DNA of 28,244 nt from contig JALLAP010000764.1 in assembly GCA_036939355.1 (NCBI GenBank), positions 1-28,244 of the forward strand, written 5' to 3'. Positions within the stretch are counted from its first letter, which is position 1. Every line of letters starts with the position of its first letter. Source of the DNA: Thalassiosira profunda (taxonomy: Eukaryota; Bacillariophyta; Thalassiosirophyceae; Thalassiosirales; Thalassiosiraceae). Below, piece by piece: positions 11,110 to 20,360 of this stretch. The translations under genes were made by a program, and so were the position numbers. A model generated the notes under the pieces. That model had not been told where the DNA came from. It saw nothing but the letters and a program-made list of their open reading frames with translations, and did not search any database.

Positions 11110-11980
11110 TGTTTTGCGGTTGGTGCTGCAGACGGAAGAGGATGCAGACAACGATAAGGAACATGTCATTGCAACCATTGCAAAACGCGACAGGCACGAT
11201 GCCAGCCCACGCGGTTGTAATATTTCGCGGCGCATCCATCGGCAACTCCCCTCGGAACTCGGCACGGCGCTAACTCGCGAAAAATGACATCTCATAGATA
11301 CTCCACACCACTCACCACTTTGCAATTCGAGGCGGGCGTTTGGCTTGCCGGGCTGGGAGCCAGCTCTCGTTGGGCGACGAGGATTATTCCGGGCGGCGAC
11401 GCGTGGACGGGAGGCGCCGACGGGAGGCGAGGTGGTTCGGGCGGGGAGGGTCGACGGACGATGCAAACGCACGGCGTCGGTGTGCAGTGGCAGCTAGCGC
11501 GGCGGCGCAGGACGGTGGCCGGCGGTGGTCGGTGGCGACAGCGGGGGCGGCAGCGGACCGCCGGCGGTAGCAATGACGACGCGGGCGGCGTGGGACGCCG
11601 AGGGTGGAGCAGAGGGGGTCGACTTGCAACGCGTCGAGAGAATAATGAAGGAGGTCGGTCGTTGCTCGTTGCTCTTTTCGAGAGGAGCGCGTACCGTAAG
11701 TACAGCGCGGCAGGCGGCAGCCAACAGCCAACCCACCCCACAACTCAAGCCAACCAAGGACGCCGGCGGGCCAGCGACGAGGGCGGCGTCTCTCCCACGC
11801 AGGCGGGGCAGCGGAAGAGCCCTAGCAGGTCGCCTGCCTCCCCCCGGGATCAACAGGTAAGTCTGCAACACGCGATGGGGATTCTTCGCGTGCACGCCAA
11901 CGCCCACACAAAAAGGTGCACGTGCGGTCCATCTCTCGGCCTCTCATTTGCATTGCCGTCGCTGAAATAGAAAGCCCACC
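11110..11980. promoter_or_regulatory. GC-rich spacer between two divergent unknown genes
   Basis: 871 bp, very rich in cgg/gcg words at 11390-11640, so it is open in several frames without protein-like sequence. It probably contains both promoters and 5' UTRs. A good splice donor-acceptor pair on the plus strand (gtaagt at 11857, atag ending at 11970) predicts a 114-bp 5' UTR intron just before the start codon at 11981. On the minus strand an acceptor at 11126 predicts a 5' UTR intron for the other gene. Confidence 0.5.
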
Positions 11981-14506: not shown

Positions 14507-17500
14507 TCACTTCCCTGCCTTCCTCTTCTTTCTGCCCGGCCGTCCCCTCGTGCGGACAGGTGCAGAGGGATCTTTCACATCGCCTAAGATGGCCTGTTGT
14601 TTTTCGTACAAAAGGGCCTTCCATCGCTTTCGGTGAGCAATGTGATAGCATGTATACACACCGTACGTCCGATGGTACTCTGGCTTCCCATTAGCATCGA
14701 ATTTCCCGGCAACGGGAACATCAATGTAGAAATACTGTGGCAGTTTCTTCTTGATGATCACAGCTTCCGCCTTTGGCTTCTTGCCGCCCTTTCCGCTTTT
14801 CTTGCTCCTCTTTCCTCCGCCTCCGCTGCCTTTGAAGGCGCTCTTCTTCGCCTTCTTCTTTGTTTTGGATCGCCGGGTGATCTCTCCCGGCGCGGTGAAA
14901 CAAAGCCACCTATGGCATCCCTCGCACCTGAATTCGGTGCACTTTGGAACTCTGCAGACGGCGCACGTGTGGCGGTCGCGGAGGTCGGGAGGACCCTTAG
15001 TCTTCTTCTTCTTCTTTGCAGATTCCTTCTCTACCGAAGATGTATCGGTCACCACTGGCTTGACAATGTCCACGCTGACGCTTTTGTAGAGGTAGATCCC
15101 ATCGCACAACCGGCACTGCTCTTTGAACTTTGCGTCCAGATTGTCAAAGCCCCTGCCTTGGACGCCAGGAGACTTTCCGCTCTTTGCTGCAGCATGAGGC
15201 ATTGCTCTCGGCGCAAGCTCTCCATCACTCTCTTCGTCGTCTGAATCGATATGCATCTCATCGTTATAGGGACTGGGAGCAAACACTCCACTAGCCGGCA
15301 TCTCCTGAACCGATTCAGCGCTGGCAAGCCCCTTTCCCATTCTCAAGAGCATCTTCAGAAACTCTTCGGTCGATTCTTTCATTGAGCTGCGATGGTTGGC
15401 CGCATCACGATAGTGTTTGAGAGTAGGATAGGTGTCGAGATCCGCATTGGCAGTTATCATGTGCTGGAACGTGCGAAAGACGACAGCCAGGTACTCTAAG
15501 ACACGGGCGCTGGCGGCGGTGGTCTCGGTTCGGACGCCAATCTGCTCCTGAATCTGATCAATCAAGCCAGTGGCAGTATCTCCGCCGCCCTTCTTCGGGT
15601 TCCAATACGCCACATTGATGGGAACGATGCGCGCCGTCTTTGGAAGCGGAAAGCATATCTTTGCGCCATTCTCCCCTGCATTGACCGCTTCCCCTTTGTT
15701 TGGGGCGCCGCCTTGCTCCAAAAGCGCAGTGTTCAACTTTTTCCAGAGGCCGAACATACAACGGAAGGCATCCTCTGTCATCTTGAGATGTTGCAACTGT
15801 TTGGTCTTGAATGCATCAAACAGTATTGGCGGGACGGCAGGCAGTGTATTGCCGTTCGCTTGCCCATGAGCAAACCCGACAACCTCGTTCGCAGCGGCAT
15901 GATCGATGACATCCAGGTATGCATTGTACAGTTCTTCTGGAAACTCTACTTGCAACCCAAGCATCAAATTTCCTCTCCTGTCGCCTATTGCAACGTAGCA
16001 CGTCCTCACACCGAATGTGACGGCATGATGCAGGATCTGAAATAATTCACTATCGTCCTTGAAGAGGTCTGGCAAATCTTTGTCGAATGCATCCATCTCC
16101 CAAACTTCAGTGTCCATTCGAGACTGCATGCTTCCACGCCGTGGGCTATCGAATTTCTTGATGCGAATGCGATTCATTGCATTTTTCTGACGCTGATAGG
16201 TGTTGGGAGATACGCGCCCTTTGATCTCCAACGGAAAAGCCACCCTCTTAGCATCGGCATTCTCAGCGATAACGCATGCATCCGGAGAGGTTCGCAAAGA
16301 TGGCCGCTTCTTGTTAGCGACAAGACCAGTCTTGTACATTGCATCGAGGCCAAGGTCTTCGCTAAATCCCTGAAAGAATTTCCTCGCAAGCGGCTCCTCT
16401 GCGCGCTGTCCTCGAATGGTGTATTTTGACTGGCCTTCTTCGTCGCCACGTTGCTGGGTTTTGAGGAAGGATCCGCTGAGAAACTCCACTGCTAACTTCA
16501 TCTCTGGCGTATCAGCCTCGACCTCCTCCTCTTCCTCCTCGCCGTCGCCATCACTGCGCGCTTCCAAAGCAGCAGCGAGCTTAGTGCGAAATTCGTCAAC
16601 TTTGGTGAACTTTGGTCGCTTCTTTGACGGCAGGGTTTGGGCCTTCTCTTTCAGCATTGTTACCGAGTAGAAGAGAATTTCGCGCATCACCTCGGATGCT
16701 TCCAGCCACTTCACGAGTTTGGGACGGCCTCGCTCGACTGACATGCCCCGCACGCCAAGAGGTATGAGCGAGCTCAGACAAAACTTGACGAAGCGGCCAT
16801 CGCCAGATCGTACAAATGCAGTGGCTGCGTCGCGTGCTGCGTCGTTGCTATTGCTGTCTCTGTAGTTGCAGCGAAAGATGTCCAAAAACTCCTCAGCGTC
16901 TTCTGCTGTTGGCACCCACTTTGATTGAGATTCGTCGCCATCGCTAGGATCGCCGCCTCCGCCACCTCCATTGCTTCCATTGCCGTCCTCGAAAGGGTCG
17001 TCGCTGTCACTTGCATTTCCATCATCAGAGCTGCTTCCGTCGCTTTCACTGCTACTGCTGCTCTCATCATCGCCCCCGCTGCTGTCGCCGTCGCCCTGCT
17101 TTCTTTTTGTGCCAGCAGACAGCATGATAAATGCGTTGGATTCTGCTTTCTCGTCGTCCGACGACTCCGATTCCTTGGAAGACGACTCATCGGAATCGTC
17201 GATTGGAACATCGGGCTTCGCTTTCGATTTCCTCTTCTCGGCACGAGCGGGAGCAGCCTTAGCCGCCTTAGCCGCCTTAGCCTCGTTTGCCTCCTTAACC
17301 TTCACAGTCTCTCGTTTAGCGCGTGCGCTTCTGCGGGGCTCGTCATTGCCTCCGGCGCCGCCCCTGATGGAAGCGGCTTCTTCTTCTCCTTCAGGTGGCG
17401 GCGGATCGGGCGCCTGCTCTGCTTCCTCTCTGAAATGATAGCATGCAAAGATCAACGCCATTAAGATGCGCTGCGAAATGCAGAAAAATGGAGCCGCAAT

Positions 17501-19504
17501 TGCAATCACTCACTCTTCGTTTGCAACCAAGTGCTGTAAAACCGAACTGAAAAGGTCCCGTGCTCGATCCGAGGGCTCAAATGGAACTGGCTCATTTGCG
17601 TTGACACTGGCCTCGTCGCCGTCACCATTGGCGTTGGCGTTGCTCTCCTCGTCGTCTCCTGTCGACGCTTCATCATCAGCGCGCTGAGATGCTGCATTGG
17701 TTCTGCCCTCGCCTTCCGCATTCGCTCCAGTTCCAGAGTTGTCAGTGGTAGCGTCGTCCGGCAAGAGCGAGGAGGTGCGCGTGTACTTCATCAACAGCTC
17801 AAAAGCGCCCCTCTTTGCGTGACCAACAGGAATGGTTTGGGCTAGCGCTTTGATGACTTTGGATGAGGTGGATGACGTGAAGCAAAAGCAGCGCATGAGC
17901 CACCACGCAGCACACAGCTGCACGCAAGTAACTGGCCTGACGAATTGACCCAAGCTGACTCCATGGAACCGCCGTTCTTTTCTGCAGAGATCAAATTCTT
18001 CCCTCGTGTCTTCGTCCATTTCATCCGTACTAACCGCGTACGAGGGGCCACCATTCGCGAATTCGATCTGAGGATCGGCTATCCCTTCCATGTGAGCAAA
18101 CGCCATCATCCTGCGATCATAATAACCTGTTTCCTTCGCTTGATACCGCGCGAGATCGGCTGGCTTTGCTGCAACCATGTCCCACTGAACGCCGGTAAAT
18201 TCGGTGTGGATCATTAGATTGACAACAGAGCTGGTGCCGGACCTCCAACCAGTGACGGCGAGCTCGTGGTTTTTGTCTGCAGACTTGCCAAAGTTGTGCT
18301 GTATCGTTCTCTGAAACACACAGCGCGCTTCGTTGACTGCAATGAGCTCCTGCTTGCTGCTGCGAGACCTCGACTTCGAGTCGCCTTTCTTCTCGTAATC
18401 GAGAGGGCACCAGTCCTGCCGAACCAACGTGGATAAAAGCTCCCCGCCCGTCATGAGCCACCAACATAACAGCACTTTCCGGGTGTACTGACGATCGGCG
18501 TTCAGAGTCGCGTAGTTCGATAGGTCGGGCACCTGGTTGGGCTCGAACTTGAAGACGCCACGAGCAAGCTCAAGAAAGGTATCGAAGATGGAGGAGCCCG
18601 CCTTCTGAAATGCGATCTGGAAAACGAGACCACAACCAGCCATCACCCAAGCGTGGATGTTAAAGCCTCTCTTGTTGACATTCGTGTGATGCATGCGAGC
18701 AATGCCAGAGTCGTGATCGACTGGGACGTTCCGGAGGCAGGGCGCATCGTTCTCCATCTTGTCGTCATCGTTGCAAATGTGAAGGTTGAGATCGTCCGTG
18801 CGAGCTGGAATGAAATTCTCCGACATGGTTAGGTTCAGAGCGGTCTGGAATTGCTCCCACGCACGTTTCATGTGAGGCTGCCCTTTTCCGTAGTCGTCGA
18901 TCTGGCGCCAGTAATCGTTGTACTTCTTAGCGTCGGGCATTCCCTCGGTGGACAGAAACTCGCTCTCGCAGCATTTGGTGTAATTCGTGTTGTAACGGCT
19001 GGAGAGATAAAAGGCTGCGAGGAACTCTGTATACTCTCGGAACGACGCCTCCGGCACCATTTTCCGGAAGACATGGTAGATGTCGCTCTTCTCTCCGCAC
19101 AGAATGTGCACGAACCGCTCCAAGGGGTCGCTGGACGGAATGCCTTTCTTCGAGTCCAGCCTTTTGCGCAAGAAGCGTACCTCCTTTTTCGTGTGTTTCC
19201 ACACATCGGTCCGTGCCTGGTCGTAGGTCACTGATGGCATCTCATTGAAGTCGTTGGGCTTCCATCGAGGCGAGTCGGCAGCGGGCGGGAATTTCTGGAA
19301 GTCGTGGAACTCGTGGTTCTCCTCGTCGAAGGCATCCTCATCGTAGAAAGCATTTTCAACGCGGGGGTCGTCCGAAGGGTCGAATCCGTCGGCGTCGTGG
19401 TCCATACGAGCCGCGGCTCGATCCAGCTCGTCATCAAAGATGTCGTCTTCGACTGGAAATAGATCACCAATTAAGGTCTCTTCCATCATCCTCGCAGCTG
19501 CCAT
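14507..19504 (-). CDS. piggyBac-like DDE transposase fused to PD-(D/E)XK nuclease with C-terminal Cys-rich finger
   Basis: Two exons (19504-17514, 17429-14507) joined over an 84-bp intron (17430-17513; GTGAGT donor, TTTCAG acceptor, phase 2) give 1,637 residues. Start MAAARMMEETLIGDLF follows a likely 5' UTR acceptor (TTCTGTTCAG, ends 19522). Residues about 130-575 have the piggyBac (DDE_Tnp_1_7) layout: LNLHICNDDDKM (acidic cluster 246-248), GFNIHAWVMAGCGLVFQ, NADRQYTRK (D337), then HGVSLGQF (about 514-521), where piggyBac proteins usually have GVDxxDQ. An acidic/Ser-rich linker (about 580-840) leads to a second catalytic domain: GQRAEEPLARKFF (E1008/E1009), SPDACVI (D1047), FPLEIKG (E1065-x-K1067) and QILHHAVTFGVRTCYVAIG, the signature order of YqaJ/lambda-exonuclease-like nucleases. 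The C-terminus holds CAVCRVPKCTEFRCEGCHRWLCF (1486-1507 in two CxxC pairs), like the piggyBac C-terminal zinc finger, and a later YTCYHIAHR. Domain calls are by motif and were not searched. Confidence 0.8.
17430..17513 (-). other. Intron of the transposase-nuclease gene
   Basis: 84 bp, GTGAGT donor at 17513 and TTTCAG acceptor ending at 17430. Removing it joins HLVANE to EEAEQAPDP in phase 2. It falls exactly between the transposase-like half and the nuclease-bearing half, as expected if the two halves were joined through an intron. Confidence 0.85.
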
Positions 19505-20360
19505 GATTGGGAGGCAAATGCCTGAACAGAAGAGAAGGGCGGCGGGCAACGGAGAGGTGTGAGTCGTGAGCTGCAAAACAGGAAAGTCACGCGACGAATT
19601 TCGGCAGAGCTTCCGCATCGGCGCCGCGCACACCCGTTCTCCTCGGCAGGACGAATCGCCCCCGCGCCTTGCGCCCGCGCCAATCGCCCCTCGAGCAGTT
19701 GCACTTGCTCGACTCCCGCCGAGGCAGGGCCCGCTCCGTCCCCAGTCCGTCCCGCAGACGATGGGGCAAATTTTGGCAGCAATTCGCCCTATTCCAGCAC
19801 ACACCGAGCTTTCCTCGGCAGCAATAAGACCCCGACGCCACTCACAATCCAACAGCGCCTCTGACGACCTGTTCGATGCAAGGAAGGATAGAAAGAGGGG
19901 TGAGAATACAACGCGGCGCAGGGGAAGCAAAGTATCAATGACAAAAGCAAGCAACAAATTTGGGCAGAGCTTCCGCATCGGCGCTGCACACCGAGCTCTC
20001 CTGGGCAGAACAAACAAGCCTCGCGCATCCCCCACTGCTGCAGCACGCCTCCAACCTTTGGCACGCGCCCAACGCCCCGCGCCGCTCCCACTCGATCCTC
20101 CCCGTACAGCCCCAAAAGCAGAGATGAATAAATGCCGCCGGATCCCCCCTATCGGACCGCCCCCGAGATCCCCTCGGCGGAAATCATGCCCCCCAACATT
20201 CCCCGCTATGCCAATTGCACGTTGAACATCTCCCTGAAGCTCTCGGTCATGCCCCGCACGGCCTCCCCCACCCGTTCCGGAGCAGACGGCCCTCCCCCAA
20301 GCACGCACAGATTTTGGGCACGTTGCCGAGCTCTCCTCGGCAGGAGATCGAGATCCGACG
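19505..20360. repeat. Degenerate tandem array 5' of the transposase-nuclease gene, period about 171-188 bp
   Basis: Related units start near 19596, 19767, 19955, about 20131 and 20308 (spacings about 171, 188, 176 and 177 bp). The core on the plus strand is (a)aatttNggcagagcttcc followed by cgagctctcctcggcagN; the first and third units share 'ggcagagcttccgcatcggc' exactly. The array sits directly upstream of the minus-strand start codon and keeps the frame open there, so the upstream 300 codons of that ORF are repeat, not protein. Confidence 0.75.

Follow-up and report, generated by a model that had tools for sequence, protein, structure and literature searches.

The window analysed here is a stretch of 28,244 nucleotides (nt) from the diatom Thalassiosira profunda (contig JALLAP010000764.1, positions 1 to 28,244 of the forward strand), and the gene under study, hereafter the window gene, occupies positions 14507-19504 of its minus strand. 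The predicted product is very probably a DNA transposase related to piggyBac, with a nuclease of the lambda-exonuclease/YqaJ type nested in its catalytic core and dividing it. Two exons, 19504-17514 and 17429-14507, lie in one reading frame, and the sole in-frame stop between them, a TGA at 17510-17512, falls within the 84-nt stretch 17430-17513, a predicted intron that, if translated, would yield mostly hydrophobic residues amid an acidic linker. Exon 1 encodes the first two catalytic Asp motifs of the transposase (D1 and D2) and the first nuclease helix, and exon 2 encodes the nuclease core and the third Asp motif (D3); since both the nuclease and the transposase straddle the intron, neither enzyme would be complete without both exons. 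The predicted layout, with lengths in amino acids (aa), is as follows:

14507-19504, minus strand: whole window gene, start codon at 19504, stop codon ending at 14507; 1637 aa after predicted splicing
18095-19207, minus strand: first part of the piggyBac-like transposase, residues 100-470 (limits approximate); residues 147-357 align to positions 115-324 of the family profile (E 2e-6)
18755-18769, minus strand: catalytic motif D1, DDDKM, residues 246-250, from the alignment rows
18485-18502, minus strand: catalytic motif D2, NADRQY, residues 335-340; D, R and Y each in 30/30 rows
17837-17953, minus strand: first nuclease helix with the W motif, residues 518-556, exon 1; family profile 454-492, domain score 16.1
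16436-17752, minus strand: acidic low-complexity linker, 411 aa, 23% D+E; interrupts the nuclease and holds the intron
17430-17513, minus strand: predicted 84-nt intron, GTGAGT...TTTCAG; G+C 0.44 (0.57 and 0.59 in the adjoining 300-base stretches)
15881-16429, minus strand: nuclease core, with motifs E (16391-16414), SPD (16274-16291), ExK (16214-16228) and Q (16019-16039)
15311-15745, minus strand: second transposase part, motif D3 and the helices after it, from the family-profile alignment (outer limits approximate)
15575-15604, minus strand: catalytic motif D3, WNPKKGGGDT, equivalent of the piggyBac D447 motif
14630-15115, minus strand: piggyBac-type C-terminal Cys-rich domain, CRLC...CAVC...RCEGCHRWLC...CYHIAH, from the family alignment

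The first transposase part comprises the N-terminal helices, the first half of the RNase H-like core and an insertion-domain-like stretch. Downstream of it, the W motif of the nuclease (QLCAAWWLMRCFCFTSS, 17870-17920) is separated from the first E motif by 474 aa in the window gene, by 280 aa in C1279 and by 69 aa in C628, two relatives encoded in the same genome. The original prediction, made from the letters of the window, had read the motifs E...SPD...ExK...Q in their expected order, and they are present and conserved across the aligned rows. It had also set the acidic linker between the transposase core and the nuclease, but the first nuclease helix is encoded in exon 1, so that the linker lies inside the nuclease itself.

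Taken alone, the window protein stayed below the Pfam cut-offs (15.5 bits for YqaJ, where 22 are required; no DDE_Tnp_1_7 match), and PDB searches with each of its halves returned no relevant match. Its relatives are more telling. In the T. profunda assembly (21.8 Mb, 1366 contigs), to which all same-genome searches refer, queries with each half of the window protein matched C1279, a single 1542-aa frame containing both parts. A second frame, C628, encodes 1280 aa in the same order and exceeds both Pfam cut-offs (DDE_Tnp_1_7 25.6, cut-off 22.4; YqaJ 26.4, cut-off 22). Among outside proteins, the exon-2 query (residues 330-1000; 7999 candidates scored) gave one relative at E <= 1, P0003, with 36% identity, and exon 1 gave none; the search with C628 recovered 28 relatives at E <= 1, ranging from 1.6e-216 to 1.5e-4. 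A family profile was built from 26 of these 28, omitting the internally shortened P0021 and P0023. The spliced window protein scored 53.9 bits and C1279 49.2 bits against this profile, the best of 100 shuffled sequences (50 of the window protein and 50 of C1279) reaching -0.9. When the exons were aligned to the profile separately with hhalign, both matched in the expected order, exon 1 at E 2e-6 (0.15 for the best of its 12 shuffles) and exon 2 at E 8.4e-14 (0.086 for the best of another 12). These comparisons indicate that the fusion in the window is real and that the gene is a member of the family. The original prediction of one gene with a piggyBac-type core and a YqaJ-type nuclease is upheld; the Pfam and PDB comparisons proposed along with it failed for the window protein and its halves and succeeded for C628 and for the family profile, which matches the piggyBac structure 6x67 and the nuclease 3syy.

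The named sources of the outside relatives, all Bacillariophyta, are Skeletonema dohrnii, Mediolabrus comicus and Nitzschia inconspicua, and a further source is a transcriptome labelled MMETSP0963; the same domain order, for which a search of other diatoms had been suggested, was found in diatom relatives. At E <= 0.01, YqaJ is matched by 19 of the 26 relatives (37.6 bits in P0007) and DDE_Tnp_1_7 by nine. Conservation was counted over 32 aligned rows, window gene included, rows gapped at a column not being counted there. The catalytic Asp residues of the transposase are kept in 27/27 (D1), 30/30 (D2) and 30/30 (D3) rows, the nuclease residues in 30/30 (E), 30/30 (D), 29/29 (E), 28/29 (K) and 30/30 (Q), and the four C-terminal Cys in 30/30 to 31/31; the window gene retains every one of these active-site and Cys residues. 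The counts support the maintenance of two active sites, as a description of related rows, most of them found through their similarity to C628, and not as a test of selection. The suggestion that the transposase core serves as a mere DNA-binding scaffold finds no favour here, since a D3 kept in 30/30 rows makes the core look like a transposase in working form. In a tree of 29 of the 32 rows (P0020, P0021 and P0023 omitted; SH-aLRT as the sole support measure) the window gene groups with P0003 (99) and then with C1279 (100), the deeper order being unsure owing to long branches. Two relatives deserve separate mention. P0014, alone among the 26 scanned, has a match to an Ulp1-type protease (Peptidase_C48/PF02902, best E 5e-10), and a partial, interrupted relative sits amid several long inverted repeats on a 3.4-kb contig (L019) labelled as an uncultured Arenicella metagenome-assembled genome, probably a misbinned eukaryotic piece. 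Pattern scans of viral contigs found no relative, the patterns being narrow and hence weak as evidence on viral origin.

The order of the parts emerged from searching PDB sequences with the 26-row family profile. Its best match was piggyBac (6x67, E 1.5e-5), in separate pieces flanking the nuclease match: profile positions 53-170 align to piggyBac 101-232 (independent E-value, i-E, 0.022) and 749-824 to 432-502 (i-E 0.010), the latter including the KGGVD of piggyBac that carries D447. Between them, positions 464-572 match LHK-Exo (3syy, E 3.4e-5) and 465-593 the mimivirus R354 nuclease (5yeu, E 0.0059). The D3 match recurs when a profile of five rows from this set of relatives is used (E 1.9e-5). 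Residues 263-457 have been delimited as the catalytic domain of piggyBac, with the insertion domain (372-433) within it and D268, D346 and D447 as catalytic residues (PMC7351741). Together with the profile matches, these limits would place the nuclease within the RNase H-like fold, ahead of D3, where the insertion domain has its C-terminal edge; as the alignments place it, it is nested between the second and the third catalytic Asp. A complete piggyBac core ahead of the nuclease, as originally proposed, was rejected because D3 was found C-terminal to the nuclease. The piggyBac-type Cys-rich C-terminus held up, both in its four conserved Cys and in a match of profile positions 910-972 to piggyBat (9c0f, E 0.0095). 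For comparison, the canonical same-genome piggyBac C924 matches DDE_Tnp_1_7 positions 4-335 within 387 residues and so lacks such an insert.

Several observations weigh against this interpretation. The first transposase part of the window gene is matched weakly by hmmsearch (1.3 bits), the two piggyBac pieces of the profile are weak singly, at the i-E values given above, and the alignment of its Cys-rich piece (positions 923-965) to piggyBac 553-594 is insignificant (-2.3 bits). The Pfam match of C628 reached no further than profile position 180 even when the nuclease was removed (26.7 vs 25.6 bits), and the nesting therefore rests on profile, motif and alignment. A small four-row profile including window exon 2, one row of which was trimmed too late, gave no relevant PDB match. 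Finally, a same-genome search with C628 returns C628 alone, and the window halves match only C1279, so that the link between C628 and the window gene rests on the profile. It could then be argued that two separate genes, or a single gene broken by the in-frame TGA, are all that the window contains, and two open frames with one TGA between them are indeed what is seen. Separate transcripts are nonetheless very unlikely, because both enzymes are split over the intron (the first nuclease helix, D1 and D2 on one side, the nuclease core and D3 on the other) and both parts are held within single frames in C1279 and C628; moreover, consensus-like splice sites would excise a stretch unlike its acidic surroundings. 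Still harder to credit is a nuclease match arising by chance similarity within a diverged transposase. The sub-threshold YqaJ score of the window protein alone would suit such an origin; against it, the YqaJ matches of the relatives reach E 3.3e-9, the family profile matches nucleases of known structure, and shuffled sequences fail to match. With relatives in diatoms, and one relative in a recognizable mobile element, the nested arrangement looks like the mark of a two-nuclease transposase family instead of a chance fusion.

Evidence for mobility comes from other members. Inverted repeats on either side of C628 (score 72; 30 shuffles reached at most 26) delimit an element of 5460 bp beginning CCCACCCGAT and continuing into palindromes of the AACCCGGAATCTAGTTCCGGGTT type. 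A 365-bp non-autonomous element with both C628-type ends was found in C289 (10458-10822, or L031 259-623; 10454-10826 including the flanking ATAT), its ends being 84% and 87% identical to the left end of C628 and 94% identical over 117 bp to the right end, and C651 contains one further end of this type. ATAT adjoins five ends, two each in C628 and C289 and one in C651; a sixth end-like site with one mismatch, in C167, counts against it with CATT, and two sites with three mismatches, in C141 and C1176, which may be chance matches, have GAAC and CCAC. TTAA flanks none of the eight end or end-like sites examined. The pattern fits a target duplication of ATAT, the alternative being a terminal repeat that includes it; taking ATAT as the target, outside the terminal repeat, the ends of C628 and C289 begin CCC. 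No terminal inverted repeats were detected within 3 kb of the window gene (score 32, equal to the maximum of 30 shuffles) or within 2.6 kb of C1279 (24, shuffle maximum 31). A 14/16 inverted pair at 11764/21899, seen in none of three shuffles, was set aside as a chance match because it adjoins CGGC, neither TTAA nor ATAT, and the flank alignment is no better than the best shuffle. As judged from its flanks, the window gene, which has no detectable ends, is an old, an immobile (fixed) or a domesticated member of the family. The canonical piggyBac-like transposase C924 (L009 2834-6784), which also has a PHD finger and matches DDE_Tnp_1_7 at 99.8 bits, lies between inverted repeats that carry subterminal palindromes, ATGCGTCCCGGGACGCAT being one example, and its flanking tetranucleotide may be CTAG, not TTAA.

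With the piggyBac superfamily (6x67/6x68; DDE_Tnp_1_7) the family shares the three catalytic Asp motifs in order, the KGG.D form of D3, the N-terminal helices, the Cys-rich C-terminus and, in C628, ends that begin CCC and carry subterminal palindromes; in piggyBac the Cys-rich domain binds a palindromic internal repeat (PMC7351741). It departs from the superfamily in the nuclease inserted ahead of D3, in the lack of a direct Pfam transposase match for the window protein and in the ATAT, not TTAA, that flanks the C628 and C289 elements. Because of the missing TTAA we call the protein piggyBac-related and not an ordinary member of piggyBac. Another lineage, KolobokE, also pairs a transposase with a lambda exonuclease-like nuclease, and Kolobok elements use a 4-bp palindromic target, TTAA (PMC9587614). 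KolobokE belongs, however, to a different superfamily, its nuclease is described downstream of the transposase domain (PMC9587614) and not nested, its last catalytic residue is E where 30/30 rows here have D, and Kolobok ends begin 5'-RR (PMC9587614), those of C628 5'-CC; on the third catalytic residue and the CC ends, membership of KolobokE was rejected. The solved nucleases LHK-Exo (3syy) and mimivirus R354 (5yeu) have the E, SPD, ExK and Q motifs in the same order in transposase-free chains of 216 and 391 aa, whereas the window nuclease is split by the acidic linker and lies inside a transposase. In Tn7, too, a transposase is paired (TnsA-TnsB) or naturally fused (TnsAB) with a second DNA-cutting protein (PMC8188705), in that case a bacterial system of another transposase family and apparently fused rather than nested.

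What could a second nuclease do in this position? Excision by piggyBac leaves complementary 4-nt overhangs, and the donor site reseals seamlessly (PMC7351741). By analogy, the DDD site would cut and join the element ends in the piggyBac manner. Lambda exonuclease has 5'-to-3' polarity, and exonucleases of its type degrade 5' strands from ends. The nested nuclease, held close to the flanking DNA, would then degrade 5' strands at the broken donor site; seamless resealing loses a transposon copy, and chewing back the overhangs would block it and steer repair towards copying from the sister chromatid, with which the element would gain a copy. A lambda exonuclease-like nuclease in Kolobok, another transposon with a 4-bp target, is suggestive in this regard, and we put forward the resection role tentatively, as a conjecture somewhat short of an even chance. 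The same anatomy could serve otherwise, the nested nuclease cutting the non-transferred strand at the transposon ends in place of the piggyBac hairpin, as TnsA does. Tn7 offers the precedent, since TnsA-TnsB cuts both strands and natural TnsAB fusions have been reported (PMC8188705), and the predicted position of the nuclease at the edge of the insertion domain would suit it. On the other hand, the nuclease is of the lambda-exonuclease type, and the C628 ends are piggyBac-like with a 4-bp flanking palindrome, which hairpin chemistry already accounts for. Nucleases of this type are not known as site-specific nickases, which also speaks against a TnsA-like role, and we regard it as rather improbable.

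A different alternative concerns the window gene itself, which may have lost its terminal repeats and become a domesticated host gene, a DNA-processing enzyme for the cell. The absence of terminal inverted repeats within the flanks searched around the window gene and C1279 points in this direction, as do the retention of the active-site residues by the window gene and C1279, and by P0003 in the columns that it covers, the fact that C1279 is the only further same-genome match to either half, and the grouping of the three in one clade (SH-aLRT 100). Yet P0003, at 36% identity, is the only near relative outside the genome, and the ends may be further out or decayed; domestication thus seems unlikely, if somewhat less so than the TnsA-like role. 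It is tempting to go further and to speculate, at longer odds, that the window gene, C1279 and P0003 represent a domesticated planktonic-algal lineage with both active sites kept for a cellular task, for instance programmed DNA excision or end resection, mobile members using the nuclease for copy gain, a strategy that Kolobok and piggyBac relatives would have reached separately.

As to the surroundings of the gene, a 49-nt direct repeat (84%) lies just upstream of it (19583-19631 and 19943-19991, spacing 360 bases), and three of the ten neighbouring open reading frames scanned passed a Pfam cut-off: PseudoU_synth_2, Glyco_transf_8 (barely) and Tub. In the assembly at large we found 32 light-harvesting protein matches, some of them exon pieces, and no silicon-transporter match. 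Taken by themselves these counts make a diatom source plausible without proving it, and the missing transporter may reflect gaps in the assembly.

Full-text literature searches, which covered few subscription journals and did not extend to Repbase, showed, in the papers and listings consulted, no account of a YqaJ or lambda-exonuclease domain joined to a piggyBac-type transposase; three of the papers listed mention both piggyBac and YqaJ. Two of the N. inconspicua relatives already carry database names beginning 'YqaJ viral recombinase domain-' and 'PiggyBac transposable element-'. KolobokE is the known precedent for a transposase with such a nuclease, and the nested piggyBac-related form seems new. 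The family might yield piggyBac-type tools with a different target tetranucleotide. For the biology of these elements, a second nuclease appears to have been lodged within the fold that forms the catalytic domain of a cut-and-paste transposase, next to the DNA being cut, with both sets of active-site residues kept across a diverse family, and this raises the testable question of whether a transposon can control how its host repairs the gap it leaves behind.

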